From positions 1-35,994 of the forward strand of contig JAENWA010000072.1 of assembly GCA_016650295.1 (NCBI GenBank): 35,994 nt of DNA, given 5' to 3'. The position numbers were made by a program, and so were the translations under genes. This stretch comes from Desulfuromonadales bacterium (GTDB lineage: Bacteria; Desulfobacterota; Desulfuromonadia; Geobacterales; Pseudopelobacteraceae). This document shows, one piece after another, positions 9,087 through 22,777 of this stretch (position 1 is the first letter of the stretch; each line of letters opens with the position of its first letter). Below the pieces are notes generated by a model. It worked only from the letters and a program-made list of their open reading frames with translations. It searched no databases and was not told where the DNA came from.

Positions 9087-10343
9087 TTACCAGTAGAACA
9101 TGGTGCCAAGCGCAAACTGGTTCGAATGCTGTTTGGCGCTGTCATGCCAGGTGTTCTGGGCATATGTGTACTCAGCAATGAATTGGGTGAACTTGTTGAG
9201 GTTGTAGGTGACCGTGGCAACGGCCGACTCCTGGTTTTTCATCGGGATGAAGCCACCCTCGGTGTCGCTTTTCTCCTGGCGGGACTGGCCGTAGTTGGCG
9301 CCCAGCATGATCGAAGGGGTGATCTTGTAGGTGGCCTGGAGCAGGAAGCCCCAGTAAAGGCGAGTTCTGCCAAGAGCATCCTCAGTTGCAGTTGCTCCGA
9401 GAGTACCACCATCCTGTGCGCTGAGCATTCCCAAACCCCGGCCGCCGTAGCCGGAACCCAGGAGGTTCAGGGGGCCGACGCCGACGCCCAAACCATAGGC
9501 GCCGCCGATGGAGTCTTCGCTTTGACCAGGCCGATTTGCAGCTGTTTTTGAGCGGGTGGCGTTCTGATACAGGCCAGAGACCCAGGAATTTATGGAGACG
9601 GGGCCAAGGACCTGGGCATAGGAGAGCTCAGCTTCAACCCGCGGCGTGTTGGTCTTGCCGGTATTAGCGGTTATCGCGTAAGGCTCGGCGATCTCCAAAG
9701 CCAGCTTGAGGCCGGCCAGGTCAGGGGTGGTGTAGCGGATCTGGGGACCGAATCCGGCGTAGAGATAGCCGGAAGCGATATGTCCCAAGGTCACGGTGTT
9801 AGCACGTCCACCCACCACACCGGCTGTCAGCAGGGTCATGTCGGTCAGGATGTTCTTGCCCTGATACAGGTTGAGGGCGCGACCGGCCAGCAGTTCGCCG
9901 TAGGCGCCCTTGGCGGTGTAGAAAATTTCGCGGAAATCGATGGCGGGGCCAGTGTTAAAGCGATTGGCACCAGTAGTGTTGCCAGAAGTACCTGTGGCAC
10001 CATTACTAATACTTGGATAGATGCCGACCCGGACGGTCGAGTCAATGCCATTGGTGGTGGGCGCCTTGATATTGAAGGCGACAACCGACGGAAGGAGGCC
10101 GACGCCCACGCCGAAGCGCTGGTTGTAATCAGTGTTAGAACCGTTATCGAGCAGGCTCACACCACGATTGCCACTCGGCGCCGGCTGGGTTGAGTGGTAG
10201 TACGAAAACACATCCACAATACCATCCGTGGTGAGCTGCCAGCCGTTCTCTCCACCAACGACAAATGCTGCGCTGCAAGGGTTGCTGACAGTCAATGATA
10301 CTGCCGCACAGATGCCAAGTGTTACTAAGATGCTCTTCTTCAT
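9087..10343 (-). CDS. Outer-membrane porin
   Basis: A 418-residue protein with a signal peptide (KKSILVTLGICAAVSLTVSN, ending ..CSAA) and a long mature part of alternating polar/aromatic strands rich in Gly, Asn and Tyr, ending in an aromatic residue (GTMFYW), as beta-barrel outer-membrane proteins do. It resembles the trimeric Gram-negative porin group. The ATG at 10343 follows AGGGAG. It heads a minus-strand operon with DUF4242, AmiS/UreI-like and small periplasmic genes. The best promoter candidate is a near-consensus sigma-54 element at 10608-10622, which would leave a leader of about 250 bases. The solute is not predictable from sequence. Confidence 0.85.
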   Translation of the reverse strand: MKKSILVTLGICAAVSLTVSNPCSAAFVVGGENGWQLTTDGIVDVFSYYHSTQPAPSGNRGVSLLDNGSNTDYNQRFGVGVGLLPSVVAFNIKAPTTNGIDSTVRVGIYPSISNGATGTSGNTTGANRFNTGPAIDFREIFYTAKGAYGELLAGRALNLYQGKNILTDMTLLTAGVVGGRANTVTLGHIASGYLYAGFGPQIRYTTPDLAGLKLALEIAEPYAITANTGKTNTPRVEAELSYAQVLGPVSINSWVSGLYQNATRSKTAANRPGQSEDSIGGAYGLGVGVGPLNLLGSGYGGRGLGMLSAQDGGTLGATATEDALGRTRLYWGFLLQATYKITPSIMLGANYGQSRQEKSDTEGGFIPMKNQESAVATVTYNLNKFTQFIAEYTYAQNTWHDSAKQHSNQFALGTMFYW

Positions 10344-10607
10344 AAGTAGTCTCCCTCTTTCAATAAATTTAAATCCTTACAAAAAATACCCATTGAACCG
10401 TGAACCAGTTAAAAATGTTTCGACAAACTACTTTCCAGTAAGACTGTCCCGCCTCTCCTTTCTTTAGATGATGTATATTTCTGTTGATACAGTCGTCTAT
10501 ATGGTGGTCAATTAATAACGGGTTCTCTTCTCGTAAAAGCCGCCCTTTGAGCCCCCACTCATAAAAGCAGCCGATGTCGGACCTCACACGTGGACAATCC
10601 ACCTTGT

Positions 10608-10622
10608 GCAACCACGGTGCCA
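10608..10622 (-). promoter_or_regulatory. Sigma-54 promoter, consensus match, facing the porin operon
   Basis: On the minus strand TGGCACCGTGGTTGC matches TGGCAC-N5-TTGC at every defined position. Predicted start near 10596. The next minus-strand gene is the porin at 10343, so the transcript would carry a leader of about 250 bases, or an unseen small gene lies between. Confidence 0.72.
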
Positions 10623-10894: not shown

Positions 10895-10910
10895 AGGCAC
10901 GGGCATTGCT
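10895..10910 (+). promoter_or_regulatory. Sigma-54 promoter of the ADH-kinase-regulator operon
   Basis: AGGCACGGGCATTGCT matches TGGCAC-N5-TTGC except the first base, with GG (10896-10897) and GC (10908-10909) ten bases apart. Predicted start near 10921, 95 bases before the ATG at 11016. Confidence 0.75.
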
Positions 10911-15093: not shown

Positions 15094-16209
15094 ATGACAA
15101 CCGTCACATCCATGAAACCGCAAAAACAAGACATATTGAGGCCTCCTAAAACGCTGACCATTGCCGTCACCGGCGCCTGCAACCTGGCCTGTCGTCACTG
15201 TTGGGTTGAATCAGGCGTATCGTCAGCACCTGGTCATGTAGCAGTGCGGACACTTTATCGGCTTCTGGAAGAGTTCGCTGCTCTGGGTGGTGAGGGGGTC
15301 AGATTCACCGGAGGCGAGCCGCTCTGTCATCCGGAATGGCTTGAGCTCATGCGATTTTCCCGTTCCATCGGTTTTCGTACGCTATCCCTTCAGACAAACG
15401 GCATGCTGTTCAAAGATGAGCATATGGCCGCACTGGGCGAACTGGACTTTTCGGGGCTTTCTATTCAGATCAGCCTGGACGGGGCCACGGCTGCGGCACA
15501 TGACCTGGTACGAGGTCAGGGGGCCTTCGCCGGCACGCTGGATGGAATCCTGAGACTCGTGCAGCAGGGTCTCGCACAGCGGATTTCACTCTTCATGACC
15601 GAGATGCGCCACAATCTGGATGATATCCCGGCGATACTTGAATTTGCCGAGAGAATGGGTATTCCCTCTTTCAGCAGCGGCGCCCTGGTCCTCTGCGGAC
15701 GTGCGGCTGAGGAATCTGCCGTTGCCCCGCCCGACACTGAACAGTATCTGCGGCTGCTGGAGCGTTACGATGCCGATCCCCGCTTTCGGGAACTCTACCG
15801 GAAGATCGGCAGGGTTGCGGCGCTGGAGTGGCGGTCAGGTTGCGATCCCCGTTCGGAAGGCTGTACATTTGTCGAAAATCCGTACCTCACGGCTGCCGGC
15901 ACCCTGTATCCCTGTGTGCTCTGCCATGCGGACAGTTACGCAGTGCAGGGCGTTTTTCAAAAGGACCTTGCCGCCGCACTCGCCGAAGGCGCTCCGCTCT
16001 GGACGGAGCTTGCGCGCATCAGCCGGGAGCGAGACAACCGGCTCTCAGCCTGTCAGCACTGCCCCGGACGGCAAATATGTGCCGGCGGATGCATGGGGCG
16101 CGCCTGGGGAAGTTGCGGAGATTTACTGACGCCTGATGACCGGTGTGAGACGCGGCGGGCCATTTATCAGCAGGACCCGGTGTCTGACGCCAAATCTTTT
16201 CTGAAATAA
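15094..16209 (+). CDS. Radical SAM/SPASM-domain maturase-like enzyme
   Basis: A 371-residue enzyme with the radical SAM CxxxCxxC motif (C29, C33, C36 in CNLACRHCW), FTGGEPL for SAM binding, and a Cys-rich C-terminal SPASM region (C250, C257, C274, C277, C320, C323, C329, C333, C341, C351) able to hold auxiliary 4Fe-4S clusters. SPASM enzymes typically modify peptides or proteins (PqqE, MftC, anSME types) or mature enzymes. No RRE/PqqD-like domain is fused and none is encoded beside it. The ATG at 15094 has a poor ribosome-binding site; M7 at 15112 is an alternative. It sits alone between the regulator and the second ADH. A target among the ADHs, or the DGVCGGY-tailed protein at 20512, is an inference. 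Confidence 0.88.
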   Translation: MTTVTSMKPQKQDILRPPKTLTIAVTGACNLACRHCWVESGVSSAPGHVAVRTLYRLLEEFAALGGEGVRFTGGEPLCHPEWLELMRFSRSIGFRTLSLQTNGMLFKDEHMAALGELDFSGLSIQISLDGATAAAHDLVRGQGAFAGTLDGILRLVQQGLAQRISLFMTEMRHNLDDIPAILEFAERMGIPSFSSGALVLCGRAAEESAVAPPDTEQYLRLLERYDADPRFRELYRKIGRVAALEWRSGCDPRSEGCTFVENPYLTAAGTLYPCVLCHADSYAVQGVFQKDLAAALAEGAPLWTELARISRERDNRLSACQHCPGRQICAGGCMGRAWGSCGDLLTPDDRCETRRAIYQQDPVSDAKSFLK

Positions 16210-16430: not shown

Positions 16431-16446
16431 TGGCATTCTACTTGCT
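16431..16446 (+). promoter_or_regulatory. Sigma-54 promoter of the second ADH
   Basis: TGGCATTCTACTTGCT matches TGGCAC-N5-TTGC with one change (C to T at the sixth base) and correct GG-N10-GC spacing. Predicted start near 16457, giving a leader of about 200 bases to the ATG at 16657. Confidence 0.8.
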
Positions 16447-16656
16447 AAAGCTATTGGTAACTCGATCATAATGGGCCACTGATCAGTAATAACCGGCTCT
16501 TTTGCAGGATACAGGGATGATCGTAAAACCAAGTTATGAGGGGGTGATGGCTCAAGCGAGAAGCAGAAAGATGTAAACAGTATCAGTAACAGCAACGGTT
16601 CAATGCAATCAAGTCAGCTCAACCAAAAAAACACACCACACAAGGAGGAAGTACCC

Positions 16657-17862
16657 ATGTCACACAACAAAGACGTCAAACGGACCCTGAAGAATGAAAG
16701 ACTGGAATACCCGATCAAGATGATGCACGCATATCCTTCCGTTAATGTTGGTTGGGGCGCACATACAATGGTTGGCAATGATGCCAAGGCATTGGGTATG
16801 ACCAATGCACTGATCGTAACCACCGGCCTGAAAGGCACCGGCATCGTCGAGACGATCCAGGGCGTGCTTAAGGCTGCCGGGGTTGCTTCCACGGTGTTTA
16901 GCGGAGTTACACCCAACCCGAAAGATCACGAAGTCATGGCAGGCGCAAAGGTTTTGGCAGCCGGCAAATTTGACGGTCTGATCAGCCTCGGCGGCGGCAG
17001 CTCACACGACTGCTGCAAGGCCATCAAACTCGTTCACAGCCATGACGGCCAGGACGTTCGCTCATTTGAAGGCGCTTTCAAGGCTACCAAGGCCAACACG
17101 ATCCCCCAGCTTGCCATCAACACCACATCAGGAACCGGTTCGGAAGTTTCCTGCTTCTCGATCATTAACCATACCGACAAGAAGTACAAGATGGCTCTTT
17201 TTGATCCCAACTGCACACCCAGCAAATCCATCAATGACCCATTGATCCACCAGTGCATGCCTGGCGAGCTGGCTGGCTACACCGGCATGGACGCACTTGC
17301 TCATGGCGTTGAAGCAATCACCTCCCGCCTGGGTGTTATCTCTGCATATGGTCCTGGCCTGAGCGCAATATCCTTGATCTTCGGCAACCTGCGTCAATCG
17401 GCAATGAACAGAAACAACGACAAAGCCGTCGAGGCGATGGTATGGGCTGAAATGGCAGCTGCCTACAGCTTCAACAGCGCCGGTCTCGGCCTGATTCACA
17501 GTATGGCTCATGCCCTGGGCGGCATGTACGATGCTCCTCATGGACTCTGCAACGCCATCGGCCTTGCTCCTGTCATGACCTTCAACCTCCCGGCCTGCCC
17601 GGAGCGCTTCAAGCAGATGGCTATTGCTGCCGGTATCGATGTCAGCGGCATGTCCGATATGAAAGCCGGCCGCGCATTTATCGATGCCTGTGTGGAACTG
17701 AAAGCCGACCTGGGCATCACCAAGACCTTCACGGATCTCGGTCTGCTTGAAAAAGACGTCGAAGGTCTGTCAAAATTCTCTGTTGCCGACATCTGCACAG
17801 AAGGCAACCCAACCGATACCGGTCTGCAGGATATGATCGGCATCTTCCACCAGTGCATGTAG
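16657..17862 (+). CDS. Iron-type (group III) alcohol dehydrogenase, second copy
   Basis: A 401-residue cytoplasmic NAD(P)-dependent alcohol dehydrogenase. Signatures: GVTPNPKDHEV, SLGGGSSHDCCKAI, TTSGTGSEVS. Metal ligands by family position are D212, H216 (GMDALAHGVEA), H281 and H295 (GLIHSMAHALGGMYDAPHG). The ATG at 16657 follows AAGGAGGAAG; an upstream in-frame start at 16603 lacks such a site. Codon use is visibly biased to preferred codons (AAC, AAG, GGC, ATC), stronger than in its neighbours, which suggests high expression. It has its own sigma-54 promoter and a strong terminator, so it is monocistronic. It resembles the methanol/1,3-propanediol dehydrogenase branch more than the first ADH does; substrate is inferred only as a short alcohol. 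Confidence 0.93.
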   Translation: MSHNKDVKRTLKNERLEYPIKMMHAYPSVNVGWGAHTMVGNDAKALGMTNALIVTTGLKGTGIVETIQGVLKAAGVASTVFSGVTPNPKDHEVMAGAKVLAAGKFDGLISLGGGSSHDCCKAIKLVHSHDGQDVRSFEGAFKATKANTIPQLAINTTSGTGSEVSCFSIINHTDKKYKMALFDPNCTPSKSINDPLIHQCMPGELAGYTGMDALAHGVEAITSRLGVISAYGPGLSAISLIFGNLRQSAMNRNNDKAVEAMVWAEMAAAYSFNSAGLGLIHSMAHALGGMYDAPHGLCNAIGLAPVMTFNLPACPERFKQMAIAAGIDVSGMSDMKAGRAFIDACVELKADLGITKTFTDLGLLEKDVEGLSKFSVADICTEGNPTDTGLQDMIGIFHQCM

Positions 17863-18092: not shown

Positions 18093-18995
18093 ATGATTAC
18101 TGAACAAGGGGTTAAGGATCTTCTCAACACAAGTGGCTACATCGCCGACGATTCCATCGCCACCGCCGTTTTTCTGGCCATCCACATGGAGAAGCCGATC
18201 CTGATCGAGGGCCCTCCCGGTGTTGGAAAGACCGGCCTGGCCAAGGCCCTCTCATCGGCCCTGGATTTCCCCCTGGTGAGATTGCAGTGCTACGAAGGGA
18301 TCGACGAGGGCAAGGCGCTCTACGACTGGGAGTACGGCAAACAGCTGCTCTATACCCAACTGCTGCGTACCCAGCTGGATACCTATCTCTCCGTATCGGC
18401 TGACCTGCGGGAAGCCGTCGAGCGTCTGTCGGCTGAGGAGAGTCTGTTTTTCTCCAAAAATTTCCTGGTTCAGCGCCCGATTCTGCGCAGTTTCCTGTCC
18501 GAAAAACGCTCCCTGCTGCTGATCGATGAGATCGACCGCTCCGACGATGAATTCGAGGCGTTGCTGCTGGAGTGTCTGAGCGATTTCCAGGTTTCGATCC
18601 CGGAACTGGGGGTCATCGAAGCCAAGAGAAAGCCGCTGACGATCCTGACCAGCAACGGCACACGCATGATCTCCGACGCCTTGCGCCGACGCTGCCTGTA
18701 TCTCTATATCGGTTATCCGGAGCTGGATCGGGAAGTGGCAATCGTCTGCGCGAAATTCCCCGACCTCTGCGGGAATCTGGCACAGCAGATGGTGGCATTT
18801 CTGCGCAAGGCCCGCGAACTGAATCTGCGCAAGCCTCCCAGTGTCTCCGAAACCCTGGACTGGGCCCAGGTGCTTTCGATCATGAAGGCGACACAGCTTA
18901 CCCCTGAGGTGGTTGCCAATACCGTCGGGGTGATTGCAAAACACCAGACCGACCTGCAGAAGGTGACGGATCTGGCCGTACAGGAATTGAGCTAG
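18093..18995 (+). CDS. MoxR-family AAA+ ATPase (CoxD-like)
   Basis: A 300-residue AAA+ ATPase with Walker A GPPGVGKT (40-47), Walker B LLLIDEID (141-148) and an arginine-rich sensor stretch (SDALRRRCLY). It resembles CoxD of the CO dehydrogenase cluster, and more broadly NorQ/CbbQ. These MoxR proteins work with a VWA partner as chaperones that insert metals or remodel metalloenzymes. The ATG at 18093 follows GAGG. The VWA gene starts 2 bases after its stop, so they form a pair. No CO dehydrogenase, NO reductase or Rubisco gene is in the window; the nearest metalloenzymes are the two Fe-ADHs, which makes them the natural client candidates. Confidence 0.9.
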   Translation: MITEQGVKDLLNTSGYIADDSIATAVFLAIHMEKPILIEGPPGVGKTGLAKALSSALDFPLVRLQCYEGIDEGKALYDWEYGKQLLYTQLLRTQLDTYLSVSADLREAVERLSAEESLFFSKNFLVQRPILRSFLSEKRSLLLIDEIDRSDDEFEALLLECLSDFQVSIPELGVIEAKRKPLTILTSNGTRMISDALRRRCLYLYIGYPELDREVAIVCAKFPDLCGNLAQQMVAFLRKARELNLRKPPSVSETLDWAQVLSIMKATQLTPEVVANTVGVIAKHQTDLQKVTDLAVQELS

Positions 18996-18997
18996 CC

Positions 18998-20407
18998 ATG
19001 GAACGGATAATCACCCGCTTTGTCGCCGCTCTTCGTGAAAGTGGCATCCGTGTCTCGCCCGGTGAGACCCTGGATGCGGTCCAGGCCCTGGCGCTGGCCG
19101 GAATGGAGCGGCGCAGGTTGACCCGGCGGCTTCTGCGCCTGACACTGGTGAAGAATGTCAATGACATTCCGGTATTCAATGAGGTCTTCAACAGTTTTTT
19201 CAGCCGCTTCCGGTCTGTTGCCCCGGACATCGATATTCCGGATCTCATGAACGCCGCCACCACCAACATGGAGGGGGAATTCAACTACCTGGATCAACTG
19301 CCGGGTGATGACCACGACGACAACGCTCCTCTGCTCAAACTTGACAGCGATATCAATCCGGAAGATTTAGCCGAACTGAAAAGCCTGACGGAGATCGATC
19401 CGGACGATACGGACGGGATAGAAATCGTTGTGCAGATGAAGGGCTACCGCGGGAAGGCGAACAAAGCCCCCCGGCCGACGCGGCGCTATACGCAGAATCC
19501 GCTGACGATCGAACTTAACAAGGGTAACAGTACTGCAATGGGGATTACCTTTACCCCGGAAGAACAGATTGCCATGCAGGATGTAGTCTCACGGATGATG
19601 CTTCGTCTGCGCAAGGATATGAAGCGGATGCAGAACAATCAGAGTCGCGGAAAACTGCATGTCATAAAGACGATCCAGAAAAATTACCGCCATGATATGG
19701 TCCCGTTCGTGGTTGCGCTACGCCGCAAACGGCGGCAAAAGCCCCGATTGGTGGTCCTGTGTGACGTCAGCTTTTCCGTGAGCCATGCCTCCCGCTTCAT
19801 GCTGCTGCTGCTGCATACCCTGCATAATCAGATGCTGGATGTGCGCAGCTTCATCTTCAACCGCGAGGTGGCGGAAATTACCGAAATGCTGGCCAATATG
19901 CCGGTCAACGACCTGATGGAAACCATCGATAAGGGCGATATCGTCGATCTGGATGAAAACAGCAGTTTCGGCCAGGTTTTTCTCTCCTTCAAGAAAAAAT
20001 ATCTGGAAAACCTGAGAGGCCGACCGGCCTTTATTATCCTGGGAGACGCGCGCAACAACTACGACGAGGCCAACGACTGGGTGTTGGACGAGATGCGTGA
20101 GAAGGCCCGCTACATGCTCTGGCTTACTCCGGAAGAACGTGATACCTGGATGCGCGGCGACTGTCTGATGGAAACCTACGGCTCCTATTGCGACAAGGTG
20201 GAGGTCGTGAAGACGGTCGAGGATCTGAGCATGGTCGTGGAAGACCTGCTGCGTGACATCTATGCGGATGTGGCCCATCCGCTTGACAAGAAACGGATGC
20301 GGGAAGCCAAGGCGGCTGAAGTATATGATTCCAAAGATTATTATACCCGTGGCGCGAGCGGCGGCAGTGAGCCAAGTTTTGACCCTGCCGGGCGCAGCCA
20401 GTGGTGA
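18998..20407 (+). CDS. VWA-domain protein, CoxE-like
   Basis: A 469-residue protein whose C-terminal half is a von Willebrand A domain with MIDAS motif D256-x-S-x-S (VVLCDVSFSVS), preceded by a basic stretch (LRRKRRQKPR) and an N-terminal helical region with an acidic linker (about 100-145). It matches the CoxE-like VWA family that partners MoxR ATPases. No signal peptide or membrane helix, so the complex is cytoplasmic. The start at 18998 is fixed by the 2-base spacing from the MoxR stop. Downstream, an array of 7-base repeats (20425-20486) separates it from the Cys-rich protein gene, but no terminator intervenes, so all are probably one transcript. Confidence 0.9.
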   Translation: MERIITRFVAALRESGIRVSPGETLDAVQALALAGMERRRLTRRLLRLTLVKNVNDIPVFNEVFNSFFSRFRSVAPDIDIPDLMNAATTNMEGEFNYLDQLPGDDHDDNAPLLKLDSDINPEDLAELKSLTEIDPDDTDGIEIVVQMKGYRGKANKAPRPTRRYTQNPLTIELNKGNSTAMGITFTPEEQIAMQDVVSRMMLRLRKDMKRMQNNQSRGKLHVIKTIQKNYRHDMVPFVVALRRKRRQKPRLVVLCDVSFSVSHASRFMLLLLHTLHNQMLDVRSFIFNREVAEITEMLANMPVNDLMETIDKGDIVDLDENSSFGQVFLSFKKKYLENLRGRPAFIILGDARNNYDEANDWVLDEMREKARYMLWLTPEERDTWMRGDCLMETYGSYCDKVEVVKTVEDLSMVVEDLLRDIYADVAHPLDKKRMREAKAAEVYDSKDYYTRGASGGSEPSFDPAGRSQW

Positions 20408-20424
20408 GGAATACAGGTTAATAG

Positions 20425-20486
20425 GATGAGGGATGAAGGATGAAGGTTGAAGGTTGAAGGTTGAAGGTTGAAGGTTGAGGGTTGAA
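20425..20486 (+). repeat. Seven-base tandem repeat array, about 9 units
   Basis: Eight full units and one partial unit of GATGARG/GTTGARG: 20425-20431 GATGAGG, two GATGAAG, four GTTGAAG (20446-20473), one GTTGAGG, then GTTGAA. It is intergenic, starting 17 bases after the VWA stop and ending 25 bases before the next ATG. The pure centre suggests recent slippage. Confidence 0.92.
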
Positions 20487-20511: not shown

Positions 20512-20823
20512 ATGAGTTGCGACGAAAAAAATCACCAGATGCATATGTGTGCTCTCAAAAAACAGGGACTTGACGAATGTATCGAGAGCCTTTCAGATAA
20601 ACCCACGGTCGAATGCAGACAATGCGGCGCCAAGGCAAACAGCTCAAAAAACCTGTGCGCCGCGCATCTGGGTGATTGGGCGCCCAATGTGGAGGGAGGA
20701 CACGGCAGCGTTGGTCTCGAAGAAGTCGGCAAACCGCACGAGGGTGACGATGTCGAGAAAGAGAAAGAACCGGAGATCGACACCAAACAGGTGCCCATGG
20801 ACGGCGTCTGCGGCGGGTATTGA
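20512..20823 (+). CDS. Cys-rich small protein with MftA-like DGVCGGY tail
   Basis: A 103-residue protein starting MSCDEKNHQMHMCALKK. The ATG at 20512 has a strong site (AAAAGGAG) ahead of it. It contains C3, C13 and C23, then a zinc-ribbon-like cluster C35-x2-C38-x10-C49-x2-H52 (ECRQCGAKANSSKNLCAAH), an acidic linker (about 65-92), and ends PMDGVCGGY. The last eight residues resemble the C-terminus of the mycofactocin precursor MftA (IDGMCGVY), the part modified by the SPASM enzyme MftC; here Gly replaces the penultimate Val. It lies in the MoxR-VWA operon, 22 bases before a kinase gene. It may be a precursor peptide, a metal carrier, or simply a zinc-binding protein; I do not recognise a named family. 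Confidence 0.8.
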   Translation: MSCDEKNHQMHMCALKKQGLDECIESLSDKPTVECRQCGAKANSSKNLCAAHLGDWAPNVEGGHGSVGLEEVGKPHEGDDVEKEKEPEIDTKQVPMDGVCGGY

Positions 20824-20845: not shown

Positions 20846-22777
20846 ATGAGCCGAACGCAGCTTCAGCTCCACAGGCATGAATTGGAACAGCAGATCGAAG
20901 AACTGCGCCATGCCAACCAGGAGTTGGAGGCCTCTCGCAATAAATACGCCTTGCTGTACGACTTTGCCCCGGTTGGATATTTTACATTCGATCGAGGTGG
21001 TGGGATCCGGACCGTCAACCTGACCGGAGTCAGCATGCTGGGAGTCGATCGCGGCCTGCTGGCCGACCTGCGTTTCGTACATTTTGTCGCTGAAGCTGAT
21101 CGCTATATCTTTGCTGATTTTCTGCGGAGTGTCTTTCTGGGGCGCGACAAGTTGACCTGCCGGGTTAAACTCTCGATACCAGGCAAGCCGGCGTTGTATG
21201 TGCGAATAGAAGCGATGGCAACGGGCGCGGGCGATGAATGTAACGCAGCGCTCCTGGATATCACGGAACGCAAACGGGCTGAAGAGTTCCTGCGGGAGAG
21301 TGAATACAATCTGGCCAAAGCCCAGTCCATGTCCCATGTCGGCTCCTGGCGCTCGAATCCCCTGACCGGTGAATTGCGGGTATCGGACGAATTGCTCCGC
21401 ATCATGGGCCTCAGTCGCGAGGAGGCCACGCCGGAGGCCCTGGCGGCTCTGATCCATCCCGAGGATCGCAAGTCGGTCATGGCCCTTATGCAACAGGGCA
21501 CCGAGCGGGGCACGAACTACGAGATCGAACATCGCCTGCTGTTGAAGAACGGCAGCTCCAAGTGGGTCTATACGATCGTCGAACCCTCGGTCAATATCGC
21601 CCGCCAGGTGGTGACGCTCTACGGTACGACCCAGGACATAAGCGAGCGCAAGCAGGACGAGGTCCGGTTGCGAAACAAGAAGAACGAGCTGCAGGCCATA
21701 TTTGACGCGGTCAATGATGGTGTCATCGTCTTTGATCATAACGGTGCGATCCAGCATTTGAATCATATCTGTCCGCAGTTATTCTCGCAGGAAGTCCTTT
21801 CCGGAGGGAGTTGTCGGGATGTGTTTCATCCGGACACGGATTTCTCGCCGCATAACTGCCCGGTTGAGCTGGCCCTGCGCGGAGAACGGGTCGAGACATC
21901 CATGGTTTCCGAACGGGAAGGGCACAATACCCGCTATATCGACATCACCGCCAACCCGATCAAGGATGAAATGGGGGAAAAAACCCGGGCGCTGGTGTTT
22001 CTGCGGGACGTGACGCTGAAAAGGCTGCACGAGATGCAGCTGATTCAGACCGAGAAGATGTCCAGCATCGGAGTCCTGGCCACCGGGATCGCCCATGAAA
22101 TCAACAATCCGCTCACCTCGGTAGCGAGCTATGCCGAGGCGCTTCTGCGCCGCTTTAGAGATGAACCCTCGCTGGGTAAGGATATCAGGTTGGATGACTT
22201 TACGAAGTATCTGGAGGTCATTGTCCGCGAGGCATACCACTGCAAGGGGATTATCGGCAATCTGCTCAACTTCGGCAGAAAATCCGACGGCCTGATCGGT
22301 ACCGTAAACCTCACCGGGCTCCTGCTGGAAATCCTTGAACTCTTACGGCACCAGCCGAACTTTAAAGAGATAGAAGTCGTTGCTGATCTGAAGAAAAATA
22401 TTCCTGCCATCCTTGGTGACCCATCCGGTCTGCGCCAGGTTTTCATGAACCTGCTGATAAACGCCTGTCATGCCATCAAGGATGGCGGCCGGGTTGAGAT
22501 ATCAACGAACTACTCGGATAAAGACCAGGCTATTTTTGTCCAGGTTACTGATACGGGCTGCGGTATAGGCCATGATGTCATCGATCGGATCTGGGACCCT
22601 TTTTTCACGACCAAGGAAGTCGGCAAGGGGGTCGGCCTGGGGTTGGCGCTGTCATACAACATCGTCAAGCGTCACGGTGGCGAGATCAGCGTAAAGAGCA
22701 CGGTCGGGGAAGGGTCGCACTTTACGGTGCGGCTGCCGGTTCGTGGTGAGCAGGAGGGAAGGGATGGGGCGGATTAA
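20846..22777 (+). CDS. Soluble triple-PAS sensor histidine kinase
   Basis: A 643-residue cytoplasmic kinase: N-terminal coiled coil, PAS (about 30-145), PAS/PAC (about 150-270), a Cys-containing PAS (about 280-395) and HisKA with H417 (TGIAHEINNPLTS), then HATPase (NLLINACHAI, DTGCGI, GVGLGLAL). The third PAS plus catalytic part is a paralogue of the kinase at 12182. C309, C323 and C338 match C80, C94 and C109 there, while C92 is replaced by Gly. No regulator gene is adjacent, so it may also feed the NtrC-type regulator at 13387. It ends the MoxR operon. Ligand unknown; the shared Cys/His pattern suggests the same signal. Confidence 0.9.
   Translation: MSRTQLQLHRHELEQQIEELRHANQELEASRNKYALLYDFAPVGYFTFDRGGGIRTVNLTGVSMLGVDRGLLADLRFVHFVAEADRYIFADFLRSVFLGRDKLTCRVKLSIPGKPALYVRIEAMATGAGDECNAALLDITERKRAEEFLRESEYNLAKAQSMSHVGSWRSNPLTGELRVSDELLRIMGLSREEATPEALAALIHPEDRKSVMALMQQGTERGTNYEIEHRLLLKNGSSKWVYTIVEPSVNIARQVVTLYGTTQDISERKQDEVRLRNKKNELQAIFDAVNDGVIVFDHNGAIQHLNHICPQLFSQEVLSGGSCRDVFHPDTDFSPHNCPVELALRGERVETSMVSEREGHNTRYIDITANPIKDEMGEKTRALVFLRDVTLKRLHEMQLIQTEKMSSIGVLATGIAHEINNPLTSVASYAEALLRRFRDEPSLGKDIRLDDFTKYLEVIVREAYHCKGIIGNLLNFGRKSDGLIGTVNLTGLLLEILELLRHQPNFKEIEVVADLKKNIPAILGDPSGLRQVFMNLLINACHAIKDGGRVEISTNYSDKDQAIFVQVTDTGCGIGHDVIDRIWDPFFTTKEVGKGVGLGLALSYNIVKRHGGEISVKSTVGEGSHFTVRLPVRGEQEGRDGAD

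Follow-up and report, generated by a model that had tools for sequence, protein, structure and literature searches.

An MftA-like C-terminal tail on unrelated proteins of iron-dependent alcohol dehydrogenase operons in genomes with mycofactocin genes

Why should a small protein encoded in an alcohol dehydrogenase operon end in much the same residues as MftA, the precursor of mycofactocin? The protein belongs to the 35,994-nt stretch of DNA analysed here (the window), which is the whole of contig G000:C72, and its gene is confirmed as it had been called in an original prediction made from the window: running from ATG at 20512 to TGA at 20823 on the forward strand, it encodes 103 aa, whose C-terminus, QVPMDGVCGGY, contains the predicted end MDGVCGGY (C-terminal sequence, ...KEPEIDTKQVPMDGVCGGY). 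Our best explanation, to which we assign a probability of about 0.45, is that the last about 16 residues may be a portable MftA-type recognition tail of an operon for an iron-dependent alcohol dehydrogenase (Fe-ADH) and a MadB/MadC-like pair (MadBC), and that this tail may be read by MftB/MftC. In the open-access literature, with subscription papers lying mostly outside this search, we found no account of proteins other than MftA that bear such a tail.

The tail gene, its operon and its protein

Same-strand genes follow one another in the order Fe-ADH (10992), sensor kinase (12182), sigma-54 response regulator (13387) and SPASM enzyme (15094) and then, still on that strand, second Fe-ADH (16603), MadB-like (18093), MadC-like (18998), tail gene (20512) and second sensor kinase (20846). 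The features that bear on the argument are:

15094..16209, + strand: radical SAM/SPASM enzyme with CxxxCxxC and C-x2-C-x5-C-x3-C (motifs, profile search)
16431..16446, + strand: sigma-54-like -24/-12 site, one mismatch, upstream of the second Fe-ADH gene (motif search)
16603..17862, + strand: Fe-dependent alcohol dehydrogenase, nearest in NCBIfam to the model for NDMA-dependent methanol dehydrogenase (298 bits, under the cut-off of 625)
18093..18995, + strand: MoxR-type AAA ATPase, MadB-like (NF047784, 297 bits, under the cut-off of 475)
18998..20407, + strand: VWA/CoxE protein, MadC-like (NF047783, 153 bits, under the cut-off of 600)
20512..20823, + strand: 103-aa tail-bearing protein made up of Cys/His-rich N-domain, linker and MftA-like tail (homologues, alignment)
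20512..20667, + strand: N-terminal Cys/His-rich domain, aa 1-52 (alignment of 18 sequences)
20773..20820, + strand: 16-residue MftA-like tail, EIDTKQVPMDGVCGGY (alignment with MftA)
20846..22777, + strand: PAS sensor histidine kinase, next gene after the tail gene

Gene spacing together with conserved order suggests how these genes group into operons, and the site at 16431..16446 is the putative start of the one containing the tail gene; sigma-54-like sites number five in the window versus 1.55 expected. For the MadB and MadC families of NCBIfam nothing relevant was found in the open-access literature. The tail gene has GGAG 5 nt 5' of its ATG. Two side observations concern the intergenic DNA: divergent sigma-54-like sites at 10607-10622 (-), a perfect match, and 10895-10910 (+) lie between an outer-membrane-protein gene and the first Fe-ADH gene, and just 5' of the tail gene (20423-20486) the 7-bp repeat AGGTTGA stands in nine copies.

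Within the N-domain of the tail protein, C3, H8, H11, C13, C35, C38, C49 and H52 are invariant in 18 aligned sequences, and a profile search of PDB sequences with this domain returned two matches only (E 0.05 and 0.48). The window's protein reached no Pfam family at cut-off, nor did any NCBIfam family match it. In the AlphaFold model, which has a mean pLDDT of 63 and was judged too poor for a fold search, the tail is predicted to be without secondary structure (pLDDT about 45-51). Related genomes hold seven full-length homologues (103 aa) at 61-79% identity, and the tail-less Cys/His relatives end at or just past GKPHxG, the point where the extension starts in tailed ones. The N-terminal Cys/His domain was matched in 77 of 97 relatives and has further weak matches in the same genome, at G000:C3:91608 (E 1e-7, internal stop) and G000:C59:47774 (3e-5).

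Likeness of the tail to MftA

The resemblance to the end of MftA that had been predicted extends, in an ungapped C-terminal alignment of 24 MftA with 24 tails (the G060 remnant described below and L214 included), over 16 columns. From -16 to -1, MftA reads E, I/F, x, V/I, E, E, L, A, I, D, G, I, C, G, V, Y. Among the tails, 20 show E or Q at -16, 23 show I at -15 and 18 show V/I at -13 (six have Thr there, the window's own among them); V/L/I stands at -10 in all 24, 21 have D at -7 and 23 have C at -4, and G-6, G-3 and Y-1 are present in every one. Taken alone, the upstream nine columns of the tails fit MftA more closely than they do when their order is permuted (p = 0.003). When only the 22 genes that we count as tailed are considered, all keep MftA's G-6, C-4, G-3 and Y-1 and 19 keep D-7 too. 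D-G-x-C-G-x-Y, in the form D-G-[VI]-C-G-x-Y-COOH, thus stands at the very C-terminus of 19, including the window's; the other three end in GSCGGY without the Asp, and most tails have MftA's hydrophobic register, E-I-x-[VI]-x-x-[LV], ahead of this end.

Differences from MftA are equally regular. Val is replaced by Gly at -2 (once by Ala), E-E by mostly K/R-Q at -12/-11 and Ala by Pro at -9 in most tails, and CGGY or CGAY is found in all 22 tailed genes, MftA's CGVY in none. CGVY occurs in 24/24 MftA of the order, which were collected with that very pattern, and the last four residues of MftA, Cys-Gly-Val-Tyr including Val at -2, are described as invariant in the accessible text of an earlier report (PMC3023750). 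Since Gly at -2 has no beta-carbon, the Val-Tyr ring cannot form on the tail, a reservation of the original prediction that stands and limits what the tail can become. Further points count against an MftA-type reading, namely the Thr at -13 in the window's tail, where MftA has Val/Ile, and the loss of Asp from three tails. The tail is, moreover, unlike MftA in being mostly fused to larger proteins and in lying in a dehydrogenase operon: canonical mftA adjoins mftB/mftC, tail genes do not. As for size, five of the 22 tailed proteins fall within 30-80 aa (55-72 aa, in four genomes, which is itself an MftA-like trait) and the other carriers have at least 101 aa. The MftA models TIGR03969 and NF040489 returned no family at E up to 10 for the window's protein and two bare tail peptides, NCBIfam models matched none of these three, and two further carriers were scanned with family models at E 1e-5.

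A CGY-type likeness to the glycyl-radical motif was set aside in favour of MftA, which these genomes also encode and which the tail matches over a longer stretch. RiPP precursors have portable leader and core segments, and the tail is likewise a short carrier-independent segment kept by selection. Unlike in those precursors, a thiol peroxidase and a peptidase-like protein are among its carriers, and modification of the tail is hypothetical here.

A conserved tail on different carriers

Across nine tail-bearing sequences (the window's included) mean column identity and pN/pS are 0.85 and 0.18 for the last eight residues, 0.82 and 0.25 for the N-terminal domain and 0.57 and 0.51 for linker residues 76-86. 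For the whole tail pN/pS is 0.23, and pS is about 0.7 in all regions, i.e. synonymous sites are strongly diverged. Because pN/pS is low and identity high in the last eight residues compared with the linker, the tail is, as judged from these alignments, held by selection under a constraint equal to that of the N-domain. Conservation of the C-terminus among homologues had been anticipated and does hold in this sense, but not in the stronger one that the last eight residues are the most conserved part, as at least eight other 8-residue windows of the protein score higher (best 0.96).

The tail is also specific. The pattern DGxCG[GA]Y-stop (GAYGGNNNNTGYGGNGSNTAYTRR) occurs at 19 places in 18 of the 141 genomes of one order that make up our survey set, all of them tail genes on inspection, and since its reversed control gave four places, these occurrences are, by pattern count, not chance. 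Over 84,980 species a stricter pattern gave 21 stretches: 17 are on contigs equal in length to ones already seen, two are additional tail genes of this kind and two look like chance. A looser pattern, GxCGGY-stop (GGNNNNTGYGGNGGNTAYTRR), is unspecific by itself (37 places vs 28 for the reversed control), and only the 21 places in the alcohol dehydrogenase operon type were counted as tail genes. The other 16 are outside that operon type; among their loci that were read, the sole open frame of at least 25 aa with such an end is in G116, places without a read locus being judged by position only.

Altogether, 22 genes in 21 of the 141 genomes end in DGxCG[GA]Y or GSCGGY, and they represent four kinds of carrier. 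The Cys/His-rich protein bears the tail in eight genomes and, as a variant, in G133. A bare peptide of 55-72 aa without a recognised domain accounts for five genes in four genomes, a thiol peroxidase for four genomes (the G026 protein reaches 217.5 bits vs a cut-off of 123 with NF001808) and an M24-peptidase-like protein for two (that of G058 matches PF00557), with variant tails in G038 and G053. Two more peroxidase carriers, one copy frameshifted in its record, came from the search of 84,980 species. Its place on the ends of several unrelated proteins suggests that the tail may be a portable handle read by cofactor-making machinery. Cargo tags, too, sit at the C-termini of unrelated proteins, and a general sorting or encapsulation tag might be considered. 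We hold this to be highly improbable: several tailed genes per genome would be expected of a sorting tag, and there is one each in 20 of the 21 genomes (G126 has two, on separate contigs) and one operon type.

On a tree of MadC from 40 loci (39 genomes), the carrier or no-tail label needs 15 changes on the best tree, tail gains and losses both included, compared with a shuffled mean of 20.3. The label 'none' (18/40 loci) stands for no tail by motif searches, which could miss diverged tails; a relaxed search of the available sequence 3' of madC in these loci turned up canonical MftA in five but no additional tail, and G072, which ends at madC, and G125, with 0.7 kb beyond madC, cannot be judged. 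G053 and G133 are sister rows in this tree (100/100 support). Their carriers are M24 and Cys/His proteins, respectively, and their tails (EIAIQEVRETGSCGGY and EIATQEVPAAGSCGGY) are alike in 12/16 residues and 42/60 nt, both ending in GSCGGY. For this similar, lineage-specific tail on different carriers, transfer would be the simplest reading, resting on two sequences. A separate case is G060 (L178, G060:C167), where at 9879-10214 the thiol peroxidase and the glycerol-dehydrogenase-like gene that comes next have both suffered internal deletions, each keeping its ends in frame; the remnant keeps the tail end with Arg for Cys, was left out of the 22 and is included as a peroxidase-type row in the MadC tree and in the tail column counts. 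As regards spread of the tail by phages or viruses, a search of viral_contigs gave no match.

As to position, 21 of the 22 tail genes are encoded 3' of madC and on its strand, the 22nd (G087) being on a 3-kb contig without madC; usually the tail gene comes directly after madC or after a Cys/His gene without a tail, whereas it is the sensor kinase gene that it follows in G065 and G079. Seen by genome, MadC accompanies 17 of 18 strict tails (DGxCG[GA]Y), the 18th having its tail gene on that short contig. Some MoxR/VWA pairs, such as CbbQ/CbbO with Rubisco, act on the C-terminal tails of client enzymes, and most tails contain Asp-Gly, which a VWA MIDAS site could bind. All this would suit a tail that is a handle for a MadB/MadC machine, either recruiting MadBC to the carrier or docking the carrier on the dehydrogenase, with a merely convergent likeness to MftA. 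To our minds, however, such a handle is rather unlikely. MadBC gives no reason for a G-x-C-G-x-Y end in all 22 tails, extended by Asp in 19, many MadC loci have no detected tail (the 18/40 above, G072 and G125 not being judgeable), and tails occur with very diverged MadC (54-58% identity, G079 and G065).

Mycofactocin genes and candidate partners of the tail

None of MftA, MftB, MftC and MftF is encoded within the window, and all are on contig C85 of the same genome; the absence of MftB and MftF noted in the original prediction therefore holds for the window and not for the genome. On C85, MftA, ending …EEIQVEELAIDGICGVY, scores 44.0 bits with TIGR03969 (cut-off 25) and 47.5 with NF040489 (cut-off 30), and bits vs cut-off are 63.8/33 for MftB, 350/265 for MftC, 363/280 for MftF and 973/793 for OYE2.

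MftC was found in 38 of the 141 genomes of the order (37 over cut-off), and before any rescue of broken clusters it was present in 15/18 strict-tail genomes vs 23/123 others (p = 1.2e-7), the MftC of one of these 15 (G087) being partial and below cut-off. In G001, G042 and G135 the mycofactocin cluster is broken at contig ends: all three have MftF, the MftC gene of G042 and of G135 runs off its contig, and G001 shows MftB and an MftA-pattern match at its contig end. G057 and G107, in which no MftC was seen, were counted as mycofactocin genomes on MftF and cluster neighbours. After this rescue 43 of the 141 genomes have a mycofactocin cluster, and these take in all 21 tail genomes (Fisher p = 1.9e-13, a value that leans towards the claim, as only tail or MadC genomes without an MftC match were re-examined). 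The cluster is thus found in 18/18 strict-tail genomes (15 by MftC, three by broken clusters) and in 21/21 once the genomes with variant tails are added, and within the order searched the tail is present in mycofactocin genomes only. In 11/21 tail genomes (eight strict, three variant) the tail gene is on the same contig as the mft cluster, about 1 to 70 kb from it. No tail was detected in 22/43 mycofactocin genomes, and the tail is therefore dispensable. MadC genomes likewise have a mycofactocin cluster after rescue (39/39), and since MadC shares the distribution of mycofactocin, co-occurrence alone cannot tell an MftB/MftC partner from a MadBC partner.

Could the operon's own SPASM enzyme, 15094, modify the tail, by a different cross-link or by a change at Cys, Gly or Tyr? 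It lies in the same gene cluster of the window and, like MftC, has the exact C-x2-C-x5-C-x3-C motif, which the accessible text of PMC3023750 reports for Rv0693/MftC. It is not MftC itself (99.9 bits with TIGR03962, cut-off 265, vs 350 bits for the true MftC on C85), nor did it reach a curated cut-off among the models shown. Over all 141 genomes its homologues are enriched with the strict tail (13/18 vs 25/123 others, p = 2e-5), yet the enrichment is gone once mycofactocin is given (16/21 mycofactocin genomes with a tail vs 18/22 without, p = 0.72). The tie between tail and enzyme that had been put forward from the window does not hold up either, with five of the 21 tail genomes lacking a 15094 homologue (E 1e-50), three of which (G065, G068, G079) are 95-100% complete and two 66-76%. 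In three other tail genomes (G009, G030, G042) the homologue and the tail operon are on different contigs, and four genomes have it without any mycofactocin match. It adjoins an Fe-ADH gene, tail present or not, in 24 of 30 loci read (38 found), which makes the dehydrogenase system its likelier target. By distribution and gene neighbourhood, then, 15094 appears to go with the dehydrogenase more closely than with the tail, and its action on the tail strikes us as unlikely.

This brings us back to MftB/MftC as the preferred readers of the tail. MftB binds MftA and assists MftC, which first removes the carboxyl group of the C-terminal Tyr and then links this residue to Val-2, as far as the accessible text of PMC5264612 and PMC9012708 describes. 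By analogy, MftB may bind the hydrophobic E-I-x-[VI]-x-x-[LV] strand of the tail, carried by whichever neighbouring protein of the operon it is fused to, and MftC may act on the C-terminal Tyr as it does on that of MftA, with the second step (the Val-Tyr ring) blocked by Gly at -2. The tail keeps most MftA-conserved residues outside the product and loses the one whose beta-carbon enters the ring, as one would expect of a recognised but non-cyclising partner. It counts against this reading that a Gly-Tyr end would be expected to undergo decarboxylation only and to give no redox product. Two outcomes are likely on this mechanism: either a decarboxylated tail would stay on its carrier, or a non-cyclising mimic would occupy MftB/MftC and so couple cofactor synthesis to expression of the dehydrogenase operon. 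On the other hand, MftB may not bind the tail, because the charged residues differ (E-E of MftA vs K/R-Q in most tails).

An unmodified tail might also act as a mimic of precursor or cofactor that docks in the mycofactocin site of the Fe-ADH, or of another user enzyme, and regulates it. The closest models of the dehydrogenase with which it shares an operon include NDMA-dependent methanol dehydrogenase, and Fe-dependent dehydrogenases have been linked to mycofactocin in Geobacter (PMC3023750, accessible text). Nothing but the terminal Val-Tyr goes into the cofactor, however, according to what is accessible of PMC11778925, and this would leave conservation of the upstream G, C and G unexplained; docking of this kind seems very unlikely to us.

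A bolder extension of the MftB/MftC reading, framed for a lineage without MftE/MftD found, is that whole proteins (thiol peroxidase, Cys/His-rich, M24-like) are modified at their C-termini by the enzymes that make the cofactor, giving a covalently tethered mycofactocin-related end group that would work with the alcohol dehydrogenase. In the 13 genomes of the order that were scanned, of which 12 carry a mycofactocin cluster, the MftE and MftD models did not reach cut-off, so that an end group made on the tail might stay on its carrier; sub-cut-off creatininase-family homologues occur in 9/13, including G003, where no MftC was found. We consider this bolder extension improbable. What may be at stake more generally is a second, non-cyclisable version of the MftA end, kept under selection on proteins that are unrelated to one another and differ between relatives. 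Either mycofactocin enzymes can accept whole proteins as substrates or bacteria control cofactor synthesis by a precursor mimic, and either outcome would, to our knowledge, be new for the mycofactocin pathway.

The dehydrogenase operon and the mycofactocin cluster also meet where no tail was found: in five loci with no tail detected (L160, L166, L168, L169, L173), canonical mftA follows madC at a distance of less than 6 kb, and this proximity ties the one to the other. In the genome studied here, the mycofactocin cluster (L078, G000:C85, 2136-14339) comprises MftA, B, C, F, OYE2, EtfA/B-like and FixC-like proteins, together with an aldehyde-ferredoxin-oxidoreductase-like protein (10622), a 196-aa protein without assignment (12616) and a ThiF-like protein (13428).
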